A stretch of DNA of 64,000 bases from Branchiostoma floridae (lineage: Eukaryota > Chordata > Leptocardii > Amphioxiformes > Branchiostomatidae). The stretch covers positions 15,339,569-15,403,568 of the forward strand of contig NC_049986.1 of assembly GCF_000003815.2 (NCBI RefSeq). The letters are read 5' to 3'. The position numbers and the translations under genes are program-made. This document shows, piece after piece, positions 25,017-54,063 of this stretch (positions are counted from its first letter, which is position 1; each line of letters opens with the position of its first letter). The notes beneath the pieces were generated by a model. That model searched no databases. It saw only the letters and a list, made by a program, of their open reading frames with translations, and had not been told where the DNA came from.

Positions 25017-25094
25017 ATTCACAGTCCGGCGTTTTCAGGGCTTGGGCGATTTCAGATTTTTCCTGGCGCTGAACTGAAATAGCCGTGCTTCAAT

Positions 25095-25631
25095 ATGGTC
25101 GACAGGACGAAACTCTATGTCGGTGGGCTGGATTTCAGGATGACTGAAGACGATGTGTACACGGCCTTCAGCGACCACGGACAGATCGTCGACTGCAAGC
25201 TCATCACAGACAGGGAAACGGGGAAGTCGCGTGGGTTCGCCTTCGTCACGTTTTCCGATGAAGACAGCGCTGCCCGCGCCGAGAAGGCTTTGGATCAGAC
25301 GGAACTCGGGACGCGGGTAATCAACGTCAGCGTGGCCAAGCCCCAGGGCGAGCGGAGAGGAGGAGGCGGTGGAGGAGGCTACAGAGGCCGAGGTGGAGGC
25401 GGCTACGGCGGTGGAGGAGGCTACAGAGGCCGAGGTGGAGGCGGCTACGGCGGTAGCTATGGCGGCGGCGGTGGCTATGGCGGCGGCGGCGGCGGTTATG
25501 GCGGCGGCGGCGGCAGCTATGGCGGGGGTGGCTATGGAGGTGGTTCGTACGGAGGCGGTGGTGGCAGCTACGGCGGTGGCGGAAACTACAGCCAACAGCA
25601 GCAGTACGACCAAGGCTACGGCGGTTACTAG
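25095..25631 (+). CDS. Glycine-rich RRM protein, CIRBP/RBM3-like
   Basis: A single-exon 178-residue RNA-binding protein. One RRM fills residues ~5-83, with RNP2 as LYVGGL and RNP1 as KSRGFAFVTF, both with the aromatic residues that stack on RNA. From ~90 to the end is a Gly-rich tail: RGG/YRGRGGG blocks, then many GGY/GGS repeats, closing with Q and GYGGY. This is the layout of cold-inducible RNA-binding proteins and plant GRPs, which act as nuclear and cytoplasmic RNA chaperones during stress. The ATG has a purine at -3 and no upstream in-frame alternative is needed. Vertebrate CIRBP and RBM3 genes have introns; this CDS has none, so it may be a retrocopy that stayed open or a lineage-specific single-exon gene. 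The promoter-like motifs argue it is expressed. The GC-rich repeats make other frames open; those are shadows. Confidence 0.9.
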   Translation: MVDRTKLYVGGLDFRMTEDDVYTAFSDHGQIVDCKLITDRETGKSRGFAFVTFSDEDSAARAEKALDQTELGTRVINVSVAKPQGERRGGGGGGGYRGRGGGGYGGGGGYRGRGGGGYGGSYGGGGGYGGGGGGYGGGGGSYGGGGYGGGSYGGGGGSYGGGGNYSQQQQYDQGYGGY

Positions 25632-30600: not shown

Positions 30601-33421
30601 ACATGCTGCTTTCTCTGCTTAGCACATAGCATTAATGAGAAATAATATGGGGGTTTAACACACATCATTACCAGTGGACTAACCCCCTGCTGTAGTCGCT
30701 TGCCCAAATGTGTGGCCCAAAGGCTACATGAATGGAGATGGGCACCACCCATAAGTATCTGTTACAGATGCACAAGCAACTTAGTCAACTAATCTTAGTG
30801 GTACATTACATTTTTCAGGTGAACGTGGCTCATCCTGACATTCAACAGCATCCTAAGTTGATGAGCAGTCACCCCCATGTTGTGATTCTGGAGCCTGGCG
30901 ATGTTCTGTTCGTCCCTAAACACTGGTGGCATTACGTGGAGTCCCTCAGCACCAGCGTAGCTGTCAACTCATGGATAGAGATGGTCAGTGGAAGATGACA
31001 ACATCAACTCTCATAATTCCCCCAGGTGCCATAGTACAGCAACTTAAAAAAAAAACTGATACAGAGGCCTTCCCATTATCTTGAACACCTAATTTAGGCT
31101 AAATATCTGAAGCATGTGTACCTCAGGATTACTGATGTTGGATTTGTACATCTCTTTAAATCACTTAAGATTCATGTATTTGTTCTCAATTGGCAGTATT
31201 ATGTCTCCTGGTGGAATTATGAGAGTTGCTGTTACATTACTTCTAAGCCCATATTGCTTTGGCTCATTTTTTGTGCTGTCAGTATGTTATCAAAAGTTAA
31301 TTTCTGGTCACAAAACACCACCTGCATATGACTTAAAGAAAAATCTAGACATATGTTTATGATAGAGATTTTGCAAATATTGTTGATTCTTAATGTATTG
31401 TATTGCCAACATTGTCTTCAGTGTGTGGAAGTGCAAATTGTAAAGGTGTATATGCACCTGTTTTGCAAACCCCACCCTGTCTTTTACATTCAAATAAGAT
31501 AATGATAAAAAAGTAAAGACTTTTCCAGAAAATCTTCACTGAGCCATGGAAGGTTCCCTGCTTATGTGTTGCTGTAGGCCAGTGATGCGGAGGATCGTCT
31601 GCAGGAGGCTGTGGTCAGGCTGGTGCTACTGTCAATCAAATCTGATGCTGACCAATCACCGTGGCTTAATCCAACAGAGGTGAGTACTGTTAATGCATCA
31701 AACTTCACAATGATGTAATTTTGTGTCTGGGAGAAAAAAGGGAGTGTAGCAAAGTTTTAGGTGGGCAGAATACAAAACATACTTTTTTTTGTGGTGGTTT
31801 TAAGATGGAAGAGGCTGCAAAATTGTGAACATAAAACCACCACAGAGTTAAATGCATTTAAAAAGATATCTTGTGTTTGCTTTACAGAGGTCTTGTGTTG
31901 TGTATGCTAGATGTACATGTACAGCTGTTTGTTCTTTAGCTACAGGTAGTCATCTGACCATGAAAATGACTATGATATTAGATAAAGGACAGGTGCTCCT
32001 CTGTATGAAAGACAGACAGAAATCTGTATCTATATAGCCGGTATAACCGCCGTTCGGTGTAACACACCAGCTTCGCAGGCACGCGGCGCGGCAGCAGCTG
32101 GTTCTGTATCTGTAATTACTGAAGTTAGATTACAGGACTTGTGTAGCACATGTAACATTATCTATCTGAATGTAAGAACACGAAGAAAAAGATAAACATT
32201 CTTCTGGAAGGTGCTTGGTAGTTGAAATAAAATCACTACTGTTAACGATCACTCCAGTGATTTTGGTTTTGTTATCATACAGAATGTGACATCTAGAGCA
32301 TCAAACCTGGGTTACCTTCAGGCAGCACTGGAAGAACTAAGAGCTAGAAATGGACCAGGATCCACTGGGGCCTCAAACTGTACCTTCGCTGGGGGATGCC
32401 CTTTTCCTCAGGTATAGCTTCTTATCTACTCTATCTACTAGTACTTTGTCATTCCTGTGTTTTGTTTTTGGTATTCTTGTCTCTTTGTGTGTGTGATCTG
32501 TCTGATGGTGTGATTCTGACCTATATGTAGGTTTTTTTATAAAGTCTGCCTTTTTTGAGCCAAAGAGAAAATTGCACTGACCTGAAAGTTACTGGTTCAT
32601 AGCCAAAGGTCCTTACTCCACTTTTCTGTCAAATAGCTGTTGCACTTTACTTGCTGCACCTCATAGAGGATGATTAATGATGATGATGATGCTGTTGCAT
32701 AAATGTTTCACCAACCTTTCATGGTTTTAATTTTTGAATACATCTTAATATAACTATTATACAAGGCCAATGTTCTTCTCTCCAAAAATGCTTAAAACAT
32801 GTTTGAACTTTTCCTTATACTTGCTGGCAGTTCTCACTGCAATGTTTCTCCATGTAGGAGGACACTAAAACTACCCCACCTCCCAGCAAGAGGAGTAAAC
32901 TGGAAGATTCTAATACTAGAACTGAAGCATCTGATCGCACCAACTCTTATTCAACTCCATCCTCTTGGTTTGGGCCGAACCTCGTACCTGTGCTACCGTG
33001 TAAAGATTATATCACAGACAAACTGTGTAGCATGCAGGCTAGTGATGTTACTGCAGACAAGCTGAGTCAGGAAAGGACTTCAGTAGCTGTAAGACCAGCA
33101 GATTCATCAGCAGCAGCTAAACACACTGCAGTACAGCACACTGCAGAAATGACTGCAGGAGAAAGTATGACAACAAAAAGACGTGAAGTAGCAAAAACTG
33201 CAGAACAAACTACAGCAAAACAGACTCCAGATGAACATATGTCTTCATCAGCAAAGGTTAAGGCATGCTTAGAAGGCTCAGAGAGTGCAGACATGTCCAG
33301 GAGCATGGAGCAGGACAGGGGATTGCGGGAACTAGAGAGCACTATTGTGAACTGTTTGGTACAGCCACATGTTGTGCAAGAAGTTGCCAAGCTACTGAAG
33401 GAAAGGCTTAGGTTGTCATAG
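27643..33421 (+). CDS. HSPBAP1: HSPB1-associated protein 1 (JmjC, FIH-like)
   Basis: Exons: 27643-27841, 28690-28910, 29448-29584, 29978-30065, 30819-30983, 31578-31679, 32283-32411, 32858-33421. All phases agree; 534 residues, against 488 in human. The product matches vertebrate HSPBAP1 along its length. Diagnostic blocks include VFKGMVEDWPAL near the N-terminus, WEDFGFPGR (144-152), CHYDTYGCNL, LFPPED, LYPTRLPYEESSVFS and FVPKHWWHYVES. The Fe(II) facial triad is H171-x-D173 plus H253, so a 2-oxoglutarate dioxygenase fold of the FIH branch is intact. The vertebrate protein binds HSP27; the enzymatic substrate is not established. The last exon is longer than in human, with a T/A/K-rich spacer before a conserved helical end (ESTIVNCLVQPHVVQEVAK). 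Start: ATG with A at -3. A MITE, a SINE-like element and short telomere repeats sit in its introns. It converges on the minus-strand gene ending at 34587. Confidence 0.95.
27935..27958. repeat. 24-bp palindromic repeat, copy 2
   Basis: Exact reverse complement of the 24-mer at 22277-22300, here in HSPBAP1 intron 1. Confidence 0.65.
28445..28673. mobile_element. TA-flanked MITE, copy B
   Basis: Perfect 13-base inverted ends, TACTGTAAATGCA and TGCATTTACAGTA. The element ends 16 bases before exon 2 of HSPBAP1 (28690), so its right end supplies sequence close to the 3' splice site. It is homologous to copy A at 20302-20495. A remnant of the same family may lie at about 31785-31845 (gtggtggttttaa … ttaaaaccaccac-like arms). 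Confidence 0.8.
29144..29163 (+). repeat. Short interstitial telomere repeat
   Basis: About three CCCTAA units in HSPBAP1 intron 2. Flanks ('cataggtgt', 'tcggaacata') resemble those of the two arrays near 41.4 and 41.8 kb, so the three probably belong to one repeat family. Confidence 0.5.
30526..30760 (+). mobile_element. tRNA-headed SINE-like element
   Basis: Starts with an A-box-like TGGCCAAGTGG (cf. TGGCNNAGTGG) and has a weak B-box-like GGTCAAGTCATACC about 45 bases on, followed by ~170 bases of non-tRNA body. It lies in HSPBAP1 intron 4. It cannot be a working tRNA: no cloverleaf closes. Confidence 0.45.
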
Positions 33422-46036: not shown

Positions 46037-49000
46037 ATGCTGCTGCAGCAACTTGTTCTGCTGATCGGTATTCTCGCCGTCCATCCTTTGGCTGCATCTG
46101 TGAGCGTATCTGGTGAGTACTTGACTGTCGTGACTTGATCAGAAGTTGTTAACTGTTTTAGAAGTCTTTGTACTAAATGACGGACGCCGATCCCATAAGG
46201 TGGTCCGGACTGACTGTTTGGATCTGTGATATAAATTATTATGTTTTATGAGGTTGGATGTTTCAAGTTATGTTGTAGGAGGAGAGAGTTTTAAGCTGTC
46301 TGGTATTACCGAACTTTCCGTATTTTCACATAGAAATTAGCAAAATATGTCGCACTGTTTTGCATTGTGCCCTTGATGATAGCATATATAATGGCCTAGA
46401 AGTTGATGATAGCAAGAAATAGTAGTACATGTAATAGAACAAATATGTACTTCGTATTACTACGTTATACATACAAAGTGTATTTAGATAAGTGTGTGAA
46501 GGTGATCTGAAATTGAAAGAGCTTGCTCATGCAAAACAAGAAAAACAAATTCAAGCACAACTAAAACAATGAGTTGTTCATGTCGTTACTTGAGAGTGGT
46601 GCATTGTCTTGTTACGTCGTGATTTAGCACTCATTTGCCAAGACTCACATTATCACAATATTGTTTGAATAGTGGCATTTGTATGTTTACTGTGAATTTG
46701 TTACAGACATATGATGCACGAGTGAGGGTAGCAAGTTGTTCAGATCTGTTAGAATAGACGAACAGTATGGATAATTGTTTGTAACGTATATGTAATTGTG
46801 CATGATCAGCAGTAATTTTACACACCCACGGAAATCTGTAATGATAAAAATACGTAGATGTTAAATAAAATTATTGTTTTGTCCATAGCGACTGCATCTC
46901 CACAATCGATATCGGCCGTTCAGACTGCATCAGCAAGTCTTCAACCGAGTCCATCCCAAACACCTAATGGTCTCGCCTCCCAGGCCCCTCATCTTGACAG
47001 CACTGCAGCGATGTCCCTCGGAACATCTGCTCCAGTTATGACGCCGCCCCTCGGCACATCAGGTCCAGTTGTGACGCCGTCCCTCGACATATCAGCCCCA
47101 GTTGTGACGCCGTCCCTCGTCACATCTGCTTCAGTTGTGGCTCCGTCCCTCGGCACATCTAATCCAATTGTGGCACAGTCCCTCGGTACATCGGCTCCAG
47201 TTATGACGCCGTCCCTCGGCACATCGGCTCCAGTTGTGACGCCATCCCTCGGCACATCGGCTCCAGTTGTGACGCCGTCCCTCGGTACATCTGCTGCAGT
47301 TATGTCCCTCGGCGCATCGGCTCCAGTTGTGACACCGTCCCTCGGCACATCGGCTCCAGTTGTGACGCCGTCCCTCGGCACATTGGCTCCAATTATGTCC
47401 CTCGGTGCATCGGCTCCAGTTGTGACGACGTCCCTCGGTACATCGGCTCCGGTTGTGTCCCTCGGTACATCAGCTCCAGTTGTTGCCCCGTCCCTCAGTA
47501 CATCAGCTCCAGTTGTTGCCCCGTCCCTCGGTACATCAGCTCCAGTTGTTGCCCCGTCCCTCGGCACATCTGCTCCGATTGTGGCTACGTCCCTCGGTAC
47601 ATCTACTCCAGTTGTGGCGCCTTCCCTCGGCACATTGGGTCCAGCCATGACACCATCCCTTGGTATATCGAGCGCCACCATCGTGCCATACCTCAGCACA
47701 CTATCGCCGACTCGTGGTATTTCACCATCCTTGAGTACCCAGGGCCACGTACCCTCTCCCAGGCCGTCTTTACTTGCCATTACACCTTCCCCCGGCATAA
47801 TGACCTCGATAATTACGCCTGTCATGGGTACACAAACCCCAGTCATCGCAAACTCCCTCGGTACACCGACTCCAACCGTCACACCTTCACTGAGGACATC
47901 GGAACCACTTGCCAGACCGTCCTCTAGCACTGCTACACAGGCGCCTTCCATCACCTCGTCCTTGGAAGCTTTTAGGTCAGCCGGTTTCTCGACCGCATCG
48001 GCGACACACAGTACACCACAGCTGAACACCGTGCGACTCAACACCTCTCAGATGACAGTGATGCAGACAAGTACGGTGCTCATATCTCCCTCTGTGGCGA
48101 GATCAATGTCATCAGTGACAGCAACCGTGACCGCAAACACAACAGCTCCGACATCACCACCTCGTCAGGTACCAGGTAAGACCACCTTTTAGAACACCCT
48201 TTCCATCGTCATTGCGGCATGCCCTAACAAGACAAGTTTCATGTTTTGTTGCCGCTTGAGGCACTGTCTGTATGAACTTTCGCAATGTCTTTTTTTTTTC
48301 ATTCTAACGCCCTAGCTGAATAGGCTATTGTTCTGTAGTACATGTCTGGTGCTTGGTAAAACTTATTTGTATCTTCAGAGCAAAGTTCTAAGCAAACGTT
48401 TTACAATTTTACTGAAGAGTATTTCTTTCTCCGTCTACCCCTCTACAGTTCTCCAGGCACAGTCGTTTGACGTCATTTCGCGGAGCAGTGACGTGTTCAG
48501 TCCGGTAGAGGGCACTACAGTCGTTTTCAACTACATCATACGGAACACTGGCCCCGTGGACCTCCCTCCCAGCCGCGGCGGGACTCTGCAAATAAAGGTA
48601 GTCATGTTTTATTTTGCTTGTTTGTTTTGAAAACCATAACGGGTAAACCTTAATTTGTACGAGGTCGAATGACCGAGTGGCTACGCTGCAGGAGCGGAAG
48701 TTTGTACCTGACTTCGGTTGGGGAAGTAAAAGGCTAGTTGTGGAAAGAGATGGACTGGCCCCATCTCCCAATACCGTACCATGGATGACCCGCTGGCTGG
48801 GCCGCTGCTGCCTCAAAATTACCGTTAACGGGTAATCCACCCTATGTCGGCTCCACTGTTGATGTGTTGTCAAAAATGTCACTATTTATTATACATTTAG
48901 TATTGTACTTCCAACAGCAAGTTGACATGTAGGAATTCTAGTTTTGATACCAGGTATTTGAATCTAGAACTCAAAGCGCAATGTGTTATTTTCTTCCACA

Positions 49001-52000
49001 GGTGTACCTAACTGACAGTGCACAGTTTGACGCCGCCACGCTCGTGTCTAAACCCACAGACGCCACCGTGAGTCCCCTGCACACCGTCCTGATCAGGCAC
49101 GGCTTAAAGACGGGCGATGTTGTTGAACTGTCCGACTTGTCAGCCAAAGTGTCTGTTCCCGGGGCTAACTGCAGTTCCTATACCCACCTCTGTGTGGCGC
49201 TTGAGATACACGGGACGGCAGTGAATCAGACCACGACTGGGGTCTGCAAACCGCTGGGGAGTGGACAAGGCGGAGTTGGGGCACAGGATTGTAGTAAAGG
49301 TACTAGAAGTCTTTTATTGTAGTAAAGGTACTAGAAGTCTTTCTTTTTCCAATATGAGGATCTTAAGTTGCATAAATGTTTGCGTAAAAATGGGACCCCA
49401 TCGTCATCATTAATTCACAAATCTGACTAGCGACCGTTTTGCAAAGGACAAGCATAAAAGTTAACGTCGTTATCTATTCCTTCGCAGTGTTAGGGACGTG
49501 CAGCGTCACATGCGACGCCAATGCGAACTGCATCAGGGCAGACGACGGTAAAGCGAGCTGCGCATGTGCATCAGGGTATACCGGGGATGGCACAGTCTGC
49601 TGGGGTGAGTATCCGACTTTGAAATTCTAGACGAGAATTAGAGGGAATTATGCATATTTCTTACTTAGCATGAAAGCTCATCTGTGTGGGTAAAACCCAC
49701 CTCGGAGTCCCAACTTTCGTTCAACACAAGCAAATTGCTTACCTCGAATTTTCGAGGTAACTGATTTGCTTATGTAGAATGAAAGTTACAAACTCCAATA
49801 CACATTTCTTGCTCATTTGTTACTACAGAAGACTTAAACAATAAATATACAAAGCACTGTCATCAAACGGCAAGCAAGCTATACAAAAAAAAGATTGAGG
49901 AAATTACATATGGATATTAATCTATCACTCTAATATTCACTCAAAGATCTTCCTTTGCTCCCGGTATCCCAAACTACAGACGAAGACGAGTGCAGGAGCG
50001 CTCCTTGCGCCGATGTCTCGAACTCCAGGTGCGTGAACACTGTCGGGTCGTACCATTGCGCGTGCGTGCCGGGGTACGTCAAGACTGGTGGGGCGTGCAG
50101 AGCCGTGATGTCGTTCCAAGCAGACGTGCGGTTCTTCGCCTACAACTACACAGACGCCTACTCGAACAGGAGCTCCGCGGAGTATAGGCAGTTAGCAGAT
50201 ATCTACTTAACAGAGGTATGGCTTTGTTCAGTGCATTTTATGATATTTAACGAGTAGCTTCGTTATGAACCACAGTTCCATATAAAGCAAATTTCAAGCT
50301 TGTAACTCCTACAGGGAAAACTATTCTGACCTCACAGATTGAGAGACCTCTACTTTCTGAGAGTTGTCTACTTAACGTGTTTGACGTGTACATACTAGCA
50401 TAGAGTGTAGAGAAAATGTACGGTAAGCTTTTTTGTCGTGATATTCGTGACTACATATATCGTTATTAACGTTAGTAGCTGATGTGATAACCCAATATCT
50501 ATATATACGCAGATGACAAGCCTGTACCTAGCCAGCCCCCTAGCGACTGTCTTCCGAAGTGTGGAAGTTCTGGGATTCCGGAAAGGCAGTGTGATCGGCA
50601 CCCATGCAGTGAATGTGGCAGAGGGTAGCGGACAGACGGCAAGTGCCGTCAGCACAACCCTGCAGAACGCCATCCAGTCGGCAGGGGGCACCACTCTACA
50701 GATGTCTTCAGAGGTTACAGTCACAGGTAAGCGAAAAATAATAAAAAAATAGAATGTTACTTGCCTTGGTAATCACACCCTCGACGTCAACCAAAGAAAA
50801 AGAAACTTGCCATAAAATCTTAAACGCCAGTAGAGCCCACACGGCCTTATGTCAGCATTCAAAACCATTTTTCGTGATAGAATTCTATAGCATAGTCTAT
50901 AGCAAATAATGCCGATCTGTAGTATGAAAAGTATCGTGTGAAATGCCAATCCGTAGCATGAAAAGCATAGACTTAATTTTCTTCAAATCAATCCGGTTGA
51001 AAAGAAGGACTGAAATGCGGTATGCTGTTACTAGGTGCCCGAAAACTGTAACATTTTCCGACATGTATTTGCACAGATTATGACGAATGCGGCCCTGACA
51101 GTAACGAACCATTACTAGGTGCCTGGAGACTATAAAAGTTTTCCGATATGTGTTTTTTTCACAGATTATGACAAGTGCACAAGCTCGGACAGTAATGAAC
51201 ATTTTCCGATTTTTTTTCACAGATTATGACGAGTGTGCGAGCCCGGACAGTCACGACTGCAGCCCTGACGCCAGGTGTGAGAACCAGGTGGGCGGGTTCA
51301 CCTGCGTGTGTCGCACGGGCTACCAGGACAGGTCACCTCAGGACAGGCCGGGAAGGAAATGCTACAGTCAGTAATATCTCTTCTCTATATGACCGAATTT
51401 ATTTCGGAGGAAGAAATAGGGAGTAAGAAAACAAGCGGTAAAGAAATTACAGACAAGAAGAGTGCAATGTTGCCGAGAATTAAACTGGTTTGAATAACTA
51501 TGGCGGGAATACAGAAATGTCTTTCATTCTTTATAAAATCTTTTAATTCTTTAATTCTGTATAAACATTTATTGTATACAGAAATAGAAGAAGCTTACTC
51601 ACCTAGATATTTCATTTCCAGACTCAACCCTTGTTGCCGGGGTTACCTTAGGGCTGGTGGCTCTAGCGCTACTTATCATCGTCCTGGCTGTCTGCTGTTG
51701 TCGGAAGAGGAAGAAAGCTGAGGTAATTATAGCGTCACAACTTTTACACTTTTCCCCAAACTCCAACAACCATCGTTTGATGTAGCAACAATTTGCCGTA
51801 AGGTCGTGTTGATTTGATCATACAGATGACATCCTCTGGAACTACCCACCCCCCAACTGATGCAAGCGTGTGAATAAAGAAATGGCTTTAAAAGTTGCCT
51901 TCATTATGAAATTCAAATGGTCAGGAAGGTTGAACAGATGACAATTAGAAATAGTTGAAAATAGATGTGTGGGAGAATGTTATCCATATACTCAAATCAT

Positions 52001-54063
52001 CATGGCCTAACTATAGAATAAGTAGAATTGTACACTGCACTGCGTTTCAAAGTAGATGCCCTATGTTTGACACTTGCTGCTTATCACTTTTGGGAAGTCG
52101 TTTTTTCTGCGTTTCACACAGTTCACCAACATAACATCACTGCATGTGTGTTATTTGTTGTTCAGCCTGTTGGAGTAGGAGACCTTGTTTGGGGGAAACA
52201 GAGCGTGCGGGCGTTCTGGTGGCCAGGCGAGGTGGTGCCGGGAAGGAACGGGAACTCGCTCTGGGTCCGCTGGTTCGGACTCAACACCTTCTCTCCGGTG
52301 AGTTTTGCGTGATGAAAGGAACGCACATTGTGTCATAAAAATTTCATAGCGGTTGTAGGGTTACCAAGAAGTACTAGTAATTCATCTTACAATACTGGGT
52401 TACGAACCTCAAACGGATTTGTACGTAAAATGTTTGCCAGTAATATTTGTATCTGCCCAGTACATCGTAATAAGCAAACGGGTTAAATTTTCGTAACATC
52501 AGTCATGTTTTTGTCAGCTTGCGTTTATCATTTTTTGTCTTATCTGCTGATTGATTATCACCCTTTGACCCTTTCCTTCAAGATCACAATTGAGATATGC
52601 TTGATTTATTGTCAAATATGTCAAGACCTTATTGCACTGCACTCAACCGCTTCCTATGTACAGTCGTATACTTTAACATGGCGTAGACATTACTATATCC
52701 TTCACATTTTATGTTTTTTTACCAGGTCAGCGAACTAAAAGTTCAGAAGTTCCAGTCGCTGGAGCAACACTACGACTCAGAAGCTAACGAGACAATGCAG
52801 TCCTACCGCGAGGGTTTGAACAGAATTATGGAGGTACGTCAAAAACTTTTCCTCGTTCACTCCATAGTAGTTTGGCCTTGGTACTCAACGCCATCCACAC
52901 ATAACGGTAACGACGTAAAGGGAGCAAAACCTGTTCCTAGTGCTGAATACCATCTACATATAGGCGTATAGGCCTTTTACATAAAGTGAATACCAACCAC
53001 ATATAGTATGGTAAGATGCACTGTCCTTGGTGCTGAACGCCATCCGCACACATGAGTAACAACATTAAGGCAACAAGACCTGTTCTTAGTGCTGAATACC
53101 ACCCACATATTGGCATACAGGCCTGTACCTTGTGTTGAAGTTGAGTTGAACACCGACCACATCCAGTACATTAAGTTGCCCTGTCCTTGGTGCTGAACAT
53201 CATTCGCTGACGGCATACAAGGGAACAATACACAGACGTTTTTTCTAGTTCTGAACGCTGTACGTACATACTAGTAGTAGTATTGGAAGGCCCTGTCCTT
53301 GGTACTGAACATCGGCCATACGGGTGAACAGACCTAAGCGTTACTAAGTGTGAGTTTTGAAAATGAAAAATGATGTTGTCTTCTATGAAATATACTTCAA
53401 ATCTTCTGCATGCTTCATTACAGAAAAAGAATTCACAGCGAAGGGACATGTACGAAATGATATCGGGCAATGAGGTAAGTGCTTTAAGGGAAATTGTGTC
53501 GTTGGGATTAAGAAAAATTTAAGACGTCTACATTGTTATTCTGTCTGTAAAGTTTTCGCATGAATAGCAAATTAGAACACAACCGTTTTAATCACTTATA
53601 AACGTAATTCTCCTTTTGCCCAGTTTGTTCCGTTGTATGCAGAAACCGTTTTGGACGACACCGCACCTCCAGACGAAAATGCGTACCAAGACGTCATCAA
53701 TGAATATCAGCGGGTAAGTAATAAAGAATATTTTTCGAAGTCACATTACCCGGTATGTATGCCACAGCAATTAAGAACTGCTCTAACAGATGTTCGGAGG
53801 GAGGAGCAACTATGTTCAAGATTTTTTTTATCTAAACATAGCCACTGACATCGTTACCTCAGATTAATTCTTTTGACATAGGGTGCAATATAGTATCTGG
53901 CCGTGTGCAATTGAATGTTTAAATGATGAATTTTTTTCATTTAAAGCTGATGTTACCCCCTTCTTCGGGACCAATGGACGAGTCCACTGCTGAGGCGCAT
54001 GCTTACACCAACGGTGCCATCCTTCTGGACGAGGGCCCATACCGAGAAATGGAAGTTAGATGA
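46037..54063 (+). CDS. Membrane mucin-like SEA/EGF protein with cytoplasmic PWWP domain (14 exons)
   Basis: Exons: 46037-46112, 46889-48175, 48449-48597, 49002-49299, 49488-49604, 49980-50215, 50513-50726, 51223-51366, 51622-51722, 52166-52297, 52726-52833, 53424-53474, 53624-53713, 53947-54063. All phases agree; 1039 residues. Order: signal peptide (1-~22); S/T/P/V-rich repeats of 11 residues (~60-300) and a further S/T-rich stretch; a beta-rich region ~455-600 that may be CARDB- or Ig-like; EGF (604-642); calcium-type EGF with DEDEC (643-683); SEA (~684-792) with a likely self-cleavage site G746-S747 (FRKGSVIG); EGF with DYDEC (793-840); membrane helix 842-867; basic RKRKK; PWWP (876-954); tail with six tyrosines. 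The PWWP part resembles DNMT3: GDLVWGK, FWWPGEV, VRWFG, then the helical half. Likely a cell-surface protein; the role of the PWWP domain is unknown. The TM-PWWP junction (intron 51723-52165) needs transcript proof. Confidence 0.85.
47008..47690 (+). repeat. 33-bp coding tandem repeat
   Basis: About 20 units of 33 bases encode SLGTSAPVVTP-type 11-mers; three units are cut to nine residues (SLGTSAAVM, SLGTLAPIM, SLGTSAPVV), so unit loss is always a multiple of three. Sites for O-glycosylation are S and T. Decay into irregular S/T/P-rich sequence follows at the right end. The copy number is likely to vary between alleles. Confidence 0.9.
48655..48835 (+). mobile_element. Deu-like SINE copy 1
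   Basis: A-box-like TGACCGAGTGGC near the start; the body contains 'gtacctgacttcggttgggga', which is also in the copy at 61.5 kb, and the end 'ggccgctgctgcctcaaaa', also in the copy ending near 55.49 kb. The B-box part is missing, so it is internally deleted. It lies in the intron after exon 3 of the SEA/PWWP gene. Confidence 0.55.
49289..49343 (+). repeat. 28-bp tandem duplication over a splice donor
   Basis: 'ttgtagtaaaggtactagaa' and the next few bases repeat at 49289 and 49317. Each copy contains the same donor (AAAG then GTACTA). Use of the second donor would insert 28 bases and meet TAG, so the first must be used to keep phase with exon 5. Confidence 0.8.
49667..49790. repeat. Dispersed repeat with long interrupted hairpin
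   Basis: A copy of the repeat at 39616. Here it adds an inverted half: TTACCTCGAA…TTCGAGGTAA (49739-49760) nested in AAGCAAAT…ATTTGCTT and further AACTTTC…GAAAGTT arms. It is probably the complete element, with the 39.6-kb copy truncated. Confidence 0.55.
51074..51222 (+). pseudogene. Two decayed copies of the DYDEC EGF exon start
   Basis: 'cacagattatgacgaatgc' near 51074 and 'cacagattatgacaagtgc' near 51162 repeat the acceptor and first codons of the working EGF exon at 51223 (cacagattatgacgagtgt). The similarity runs on through 'gacagtaa(c/t)gaac' and then is lost; both miss the rest of the domain and any donor. They are remnants of a tandem EGF-exon array and cannot encode a domain, though their acceptors remain. 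Confidence 0.75.
52166..52833 (+). other. PWWP domain exons
   Basis: Exons 52166-52297 and 52726-52833 of the 46037-54063 gene encode a complete DNMT3-type PWWP: beta-barrel VGVGDLVWGK, FWWPGEVV, LWVRWFG, then a helical bundle with SYREGLNRIME. From memory of DNMT3A, the methyl-lysine cage is F303, W306, W330 and D333; the matching residues here are A890, W893, W910 and L913, so two are lost. F891 next to A890 might partly compensate. Binding to H3K36 methyl marks therefore cannot be assumed. Confidence 0.8.
52873..53325 (+). repeat. Degenerate minisatellite
   Basis: Phrases 'ccttggtgctgaacgccatcc', 'cctgttc(c/t)tagtgctgaatacca' and 'cacatatnggcnta' recur about every 50-60 bases through the intron between the second PWWP exon and the next exon. 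It is an old, diverged tandem repeat. Confidence 0.65.

Follow-up and report, generated by a model that had tools for sequence, protein, structure and literature searches.

A gene of the lancelet Branchiostoma floridae joins a mucin-like SEA/EGF ectodomain, a membrane helix, and a PWWP domain, and this architecture is confirmed as real, as encoded in a single predicted protein, and as conserved among Branchiostoma species. According to the whole analysis, which is based on the genome sequence and gene models, the best-fitting reading (probability about 0.64) is that lancelets carry a family of type I mucin-like SEA/EGF receptors, the ancestor of which gained the two-exon PWWP of DNMT3 directly after the helix exon. 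PWWP domains are known as nuclear readers. The family would be a clean example from nature of such a chromatin module being moved to the cell surface, one in which both the exon boundaries and the likely donor gene can still be recognised, and it would allow a test of what the pocket of a PWWP can achieve away from chromatin.

The gene runs from an ATG at position 46037 to the end of a TGA at position 54063 of the window (the whole stretch of 64,000 nucleotides that was analysed) and comprises 14 exons, which encode a predicted type I membrane protein of 1039 aa (Table 1). All 13 introns are of the GT-AG type, their phases agree, and there are zero internal stops; since the splice sites were chosen by eye, this phase consistency is partly built into the model. 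P0003, a B. floridae database model, matches the window's model exactly in all compared domain segments through the PWWP, and is thus taken to be the database model of the same gene. Its exon 12 reads into intron 12 and stops early, as a result of which the tyrosine tail is missing. A copy of exon 12 together with upstream intron sequence lies about 6 Mb away on the window's own contig, C8, at C8:21641302 (L032:5005-5359 against window positions 53149-53475, 82-96% identical); it stops at the exon end and represents a small duplicated fragment.

Table 1. Exons of the receptor gene, in window positions.
Feature	Position	Strand	Content	Source
Exon 1	46037..46112	+	Start codon, hydrophobic N-terminus; signal peptide (by eye)	
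Exon 2	46889..48175	+	Mucin-like region, 429 residues, SLGTSAPVVTP-like repeat units	
Exon 3	48449..48597	+	First part of a domain of no assigned family; common to paralogues	
Exon 4	49002..49299	+	Second part of the exon-3/4 domain; common to paralogues	
Exon 5	49488..49604	+	EGF-like domain 1	Gene model, Pfam
Exon 6	49980..50215	+	EGF-like domain 2 and first half of SEA	Gene model, Pfam
Exon 7	50513..50726	+	Second half of SEA, FRKGSVIG	Gene model, Pfam
Exon 8	51223..51366	+	EGF-like domain 3 (EGF_CA)	Gene model, Pfam
Exon 9	51622..51722	+	Transmembrane helix, CCC, RKRKK; intron phase 1 in, 0 out	
Exon 10	52166..52297	+	Beta-barrel half of PWWP, phase 0-0	
Exon 11	52726..52833	+	Helical half of PWWP, 36 codons, phase 0-0	
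Exon 12	53424..53474	+	Linker KKNSQRRDMYEMISGNE	
Exon 13	53624..53713	+	Tail with YAETV, YQDV, YQRL; found in P0001, P0002, P0006	
Exon 14	53947..54063	+	Tail with YTNG, YREM; stop	

The joined protein consists of a hydrophobic N-terminus, the mucin-like region, the exon-3/4 domain, two EGF-like domains, SEA, a third EGF-like domain, the helix, CCC-RKRKK, PWWP, and a tyrosine-rich tail. A preliminary description of this DNA had listed signal peptide, mucin repeats, EGF, SEA, EGF, helix, and PWWP; this order holds along the exons of Table 1, except that two EGF-like domains, and not one, precede SEA. The exon-3/4 domain, the second EGF before SEA, the tail with its six conserved tyrosines, and the paralogues go beyond that list. 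A Pfam search of the joined protein, which had been proposed as a check, recovers both SEA (residues 687-780, 35.5 bits, cut-off 26.4) and PWWP (PF00855, residues 879-954, 26.4 bits, a narrow margin over the cut-off of 25.6), and the piece with the helix and PWWP alone reaches 29.0 bits against the same PF00855 cut-off. EGF-type domains score above the cut-off on both sides of SEA, and Pfam finds no ADD or methyltransferase domain in the 1039-aa protein. Counted from the CCC at the end of the helix, the first residue of exon 10 is the eighth, in agreement with the earlier estimate that the PWWP starts about eight residues past it. As for the proposed DNMT3 type of this PWWP, it is borne out by the comparison of the cytoplasmic part with the PDB, which returns the DNMT3B PWWP with E-values of 2.3e-19 (6r3e, a tandem construct) and 2.4e-9 (5ciu, a single domain).

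The ectodomain has the features of a SEA-containing transmembrane mucin, namely SEA near a single membrane helix (with EGF3 between them) and Ser/Thr/Pro-rich repeats. Ser+Thr+Pro make up 48% of the 429 residues of the exon 2 region, in which the repeat-core pattern is matched 19 times; the Pfam Mucin-like model scores 16.9 bits there, below its cut-off of 28.7. The helix is also present in the predicted structure of P0006, a B. belcheri protein. The EGF-SEA-EGF order is known from mucins such as MUC13 and MUC17. Within SEA, FRKGSVIG aligns by eye with the position of the MUC1 cleavage motif, which is GSVVV according to passages of PMC9564314. The receptor resembles transmembrane mucins with SEA in its Ser/Thr/Pro-rich repeats, its SEA with a GSV motif, its single helix, its juxtamembrane cysteines and basic run, and the YTNG of the tail, the MUC1 counterpart of which, YTNP, binds Grb2 (passages of PMC5039420). 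It differs from transmembrane mucins in having the exon-3/4 domain in addition and, immediately after the helix, a PWWP. The exon-3/4 domain has zero Pfam matches and a best PDB sequence match at chance level (E 0.69), and it appears beta-rich by eye and in a low-confidence structure model of P0004.

Five PWWP-bearing lancelet proteins were retrieved, all of them gene models (P0001, P0002, P0003, P0004, and P0006), and each has the helix joined to the PWWP. The search for the same order in other lancelets, also suggested in the preliminary description, finds it with the same join in P0001 (B. floridae x B. japonicum hybrid) and P0002 (B. lanceolatum), and paralogous loci repeat it; P0003 carries the join too, but models the window's own gene. 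P0004 of B. belcheri, a relative, combines SEA, EGF, helix, and PWWP in a single chain, and its PWWP is 77% identical to that of the C17 paralogue. Among the protein matches listed in word-based, length-limited searches, there are no PWWP-bearing relatives from outside Branchiostoma.

The B. belcheri orthologue is annotated as two proteins, P0005 (the ectodomain part, without PWWP) and P0006 (helix, PWWP, and tail), one of which is named DNMT3A-like. This annotation would suit the supposition that two neighbouring genes, a SEA/EGF receptor whose last exon is the membrane exon and a small PWWP gene resembling DNMT3, have been fused by the model only. P0006 itself, however, starts within the membrane helix and extends into the PWWP, and therefore the break in the B. 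belcheri annotation is upstream of the helix-PWWP join. Four other lancelet models also carry the join (one of them, P0003, for the same gene), three further loci have a helix exon ahead of the PWWP exon, and exon 10 contains zero Met codons, all of which makes an artificial fusion extremely improbable. A separate PWWP mRNA, which had been named as the outcome contrary to the single-protein claim, is likewise unsupported by the gene models. P0006 is called DNMT3A-like in the database, though it consists of the helix, PWWP, and tail of the receptor, and PWWP-based counts of DNMT3 in lancelets could therefore be misled; the database names given to such receptor genes are DNMT3A-like, FBN1, and FLO11-like.

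A search of the B. floridae genome with the cytoplasmic part gives 14 matches, including PWWP-like exons at C17:2902091, C2:13105009, and C8:18495513 (minus strand), as well as the DNMT3 gene at C2:25575589. At four loci (the window, C17, C2, and C8), a helix exon is followed by a PWWP that is split at the same site and has a second exon of 36 codons. When the PWWP of the C8 paralogue is used as the query, the genome matches with E up to 5 are the four receptor loci and DNMT3 only. PF00855 scores are 27.8 for C2 and 32.4 for C8, above the cut-off of 25.6, and 19.8 for C17, below it. Exons of the exon-3/4 domain lie near the C17 and C2 PWWPs, and EGF exons near those of C17, C2, and C8. Both SEA halves are found at C17, C2 gives a weak match (E 0.043), and C8 has a stretch with a GS motif, recognised by eye. 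A continuous model from the exon-3/4 domain as far as the PWWP was assembled at C17 only, the ectodomains of C2 and C8 being traced in part.

In the helix-exon scan, phase 1 in was imposed throughout, and phase 0 out was imposed for C17 and left free for C2 and C8. Both candidates listed for C2 are phase 0 out, and C8 has a phase 0 donor and a phase 2 donor. Second PWWP exons were located by a phase-free profile (for C2, E 1.3e-9 with a profile not containing C2). Phase 0-0 splice sites bound exactly 36 codons at each locus with all phases imposed; because phases were partly imposed in the scans, the paralogue phases show that fitting splice sites are present and are not independent proof. At C17 and C2, the acceptor of the first PWWP exon has a weak pyrimidine tract, and the C17 acceptor that adds KK agrees with KKSVDL of P0004. 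The exon-3/4 domain is also found at C6 and C1, and these searches detect a PWWP at neither. Extra EGF-type ectodomain exons occur upstream of the PWWP receptors in L024 (C17:2.887-2.892 Mb, which also has SEA) and L030 (C8:18.502-18.505 Mb). The helix-exon scan finds no convincing helix exon belonging to these extra exons, and the C17 and C8 receptors may have doubled ectodomains.

According to the comparison of the window with B. lanceolatum, the best-conserved segments are PWWP (74/81 identical), EGF2 (40/43), EGF3 (43/48), and the helix exon (31/33), and the less conserved ones are SEA (87/107), the exon-3/4 domain (113/150), and the tail (62/85). Over four lancelet sequences, 67 of the 80 PWWP residues are invariant, and in the tail all six tyrosine columns are invariant versus 47 of the 79 other columns. 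These values bear on the suggestion that exon shuffling, in a genome of very high domain turnover, has left the PWWP as a passenger that is passive or decaying. The gain and loss of domain pairs is unusually rapid in lancelets (passages of PMC4284660), the cage of the PWWP is partly degraded, and the C17 copy falls below the Pfam cut-off. However, the PWWP is conserved at the level of the best-kept ectodomain parts and above SEA, the exon-3/4 domain, and the tail, and the 36-codon exon and two pocket tryptophans are still kept at four loci with 29-52% identity, which makes a passenger quite improbable.

Sequence comparisons place the receptor PWWP closest to DNMT3. The top PDB matches of a profile of five receptor PWWPs from four loci are DNMT3B and DNMT3A (2.5e-27 to 7.5e-12), with PWWP2B next (1.7e-6). 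The P0006 structure model (mean pLDDT 57.5, barrel about 66-77) has modest confidence and gives zero Foldseek matches with E <0.001, the top four ranks being held by DNMT3A and DNMT3B PWWPs. The lancelet DNMT3 locus at C2:25575589 was recognised by a nearby exon that we take, from its motif, to be ADD-like. Its PWWP is likewise encoded by two phase 0-0 exons split at the receptors' site, so that both intron sites and phases are common; the second exon has 37 codons in the preferred reading and 35 with an alternative acceptor. According to passages of PMC6976628, DNMT3 is single-copy in B. floridae and B. lanceolatum. Seven other PWWP matches were found in the lancelet genome, and none of the five that are readable to or past the DNMT3 intron site shares it by eye, the remaining two (L005 and L007) ending before the site and being left out of this comparison.

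A ten-sequence tree sets the seven receptor PWWPs apart from one other lancelet PWWP, DNMT3, and DNMT3B with a support of 91.5/94; common to all seven are an insertion of one residue before WWP and a shortened beta2-beta3 loop. Support for separating DNMT3 from the other lancelet PWWP is weak (0.7/49), as trees of small domains are, and 2/7 of the other lancelet matches end before the intron site; both points leave some room for an origin from another PWWP gene, or for convergence. Such an origin is nevertheless very unlikely, as DNMT3 tops the sequence comparisons and has the intron sites and phases of the receptors, which are seen in none of the five other readable matches. Judging from these comparisons, the DNMT3 PWWP module was most likely acquired in one exon-shuffling event that placed it after the helix of a SEA/EGF receptor, and a single capture followed by duplication is the simplest account of the four loci. 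Compared with DNMT3A and DNMT3B, the receptor has no ADD or methyltransferase domain found, carries the insertion and the shorter loop, has Leu, Ile, or Ser in place of the cage aspartate and no equivalent of K294, and has its PWWP behind a membrane helix.

As for the pocket, the aromatic cage of DNMT3B is taken here to consist of F236, W239, W263, and D266. Passages of PMC7615734 include W263 and D266 in the DNMT3 pocket and report that a single charge swap at K276 or K294 of DNMT3B highly decreases DNA binding. Bis-tris contacts of D266 and D333 are described in passages of PMC3119473, and in DNMT3A, according to passages of PMC8162659, W330R and D333N lower H3K36me2/3 binding and D329A severely affects it. 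The W239 and W263 equivalents are kept in all seven receptor PWWPs, the D266 equivalent is lost in all seven (L, L, L, I, I, S, and S), and the F236 position is displaced by the insertion. By eye, the K294 equivalent is also lost in 7/7 (T, T, T, G, S, T, and N), and the K276 equivalent is K, K, K, E, E, R, and R, with Glu in the C17 pair and a basic residue in the other five. Lancelet DNMT3 keeps the cage aspartate and basic residues at both lysine sites; net charge is uninformative (-2 to +7 for the receptor PWWPs versus +1 for lancelet DNMT3). Thus, the cage acidic residue and the K276/K294 lysine pair of a DNMT3-type H3K36me reader are not found in the receptors. Going by these residues, classic nucleosome reading by the receptor PWWP appears unlikely, and the pocket with its two kept tryptophans may bind some other ligand.

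The same residues weigh on the proposal that SEA cleavage is followed by an intramembrane cut, after which a fragment of RKRKK, PWWP, and tail would enter the nucleus and bind chromatin. MUC1 provides a precedent, with SEA autoproteolysis and nuclear MUC1-C described in passages of PMC9564314, and the receptor has a SEA above the cut-off with a GSV motif, both cage tryptophans in 7/7 sequences, and a basic run after the helix (RKRKK in the window, KKQRGTKK in C17, SKKQ in C2, and KGTKYGRRK in C8), which varies in strength among paralogues and is not weak in C17. This run, however, argues neither way, since it is ordinary for a stop-transfer signal. The cage aspartate is absent in 7/7, and D333N and D329A of DNMT3A impair H3K36me2/3 recognition (same passages of PMC8162659); the K294 equivalent is lost in 7/7 and the K276 equivalent is Glu in the C17 pair, and either swap cuts DNA binding of DNMT3B (PMC7615734, as above). 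Because the cage aspartate and one DNA-contact lysine are lost in all seven sequences, a re-purposed membrane-side module is likelier than a shed nuclear H3K36me reader, and nuclear signalling by a shed fragment is unlikely. Of the two fates that the preliminary description had offered for the PWWP, travel to the nucleus is consequently the less well supported, and re-use as a membrane-side module is the better fit.

According to the preferred reading, a two-exon DNMT3 PWWP module would have been inserted by exon shuffling directly behind the membrane-helix exon of the ancestor. The glycosylated ectodomain would be held by SEA, with a working mode like that of the transmembrane mucin MUC1, and SEA self-cleavage would leave a membrane-bound stub, as in MUC1. 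The PWWP would stay at the inner membrane face as a docking module that binds a protein or ligand, its chromatin contacts being lost, and the tail may signal or drive endocytosis via the putative phosphotyrosine motifs YTNG (Grb2-type), YREM, and YQRL. A more speculative and rather unlikely extension is that the histone-reader pocket has turned into a membrane-side sensor of a quaternary-ammonium ligand, which would couple ectodomain shedding to tyrosine signalling. The PWWP would then sit about 10 residues from the bilayer, its two kept tryptophans would bind the ligand, and the ligand may be a methylated lysine of a cytosolic partner or the choline headgroups of the inner leaflet. PDB 5nvo, an entry among the structure matches listed, is a DNMT3B PWWP crystallised with choline.

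Lancelets are described as having very active exon shuffling with a bias to 1-1 phase exons (passages of PMC4284660, Nat Commun 2014). The receptor is similar to the shuffled-domain genes covered there and in passages of PMC2575513 (Genome Biol 2008) in being a lineage-specific new combination of domains; in contrast to the 1-1 bias, it uses a 0-0 exon pair, which appears to come from a chromatin enzyme and is placed on the cytosolic side. The word PWWP is absent from the main texts of PMC4284660 and PMC2575513, and no description of a membrane receptor or membrane mucin with a PWWP was found in the titles and abstract starts of the open-licence papers listed. Within these papers, and given the conservation in lancelets, the earlier wording of an unusual, perhaps undescribed architecture is appropriate.

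Other candidate coding segments lie on the plus strand of the window. A single-exon open frame at 25083-25628 has an RRM domain (Pfam RRM_1) and a glycine-rich tail, and it is perhaps, as a guess, a retrocopy of cold-inducible RNA-binding protein. The exon at 30732-30992 has Cupin_8 and JmjC_2 matches above the cut-off and is perhaps part of a JmjC-type hydroxylase gene, and the exon at 58943-59293 matches the SOUL heme-binding domain.
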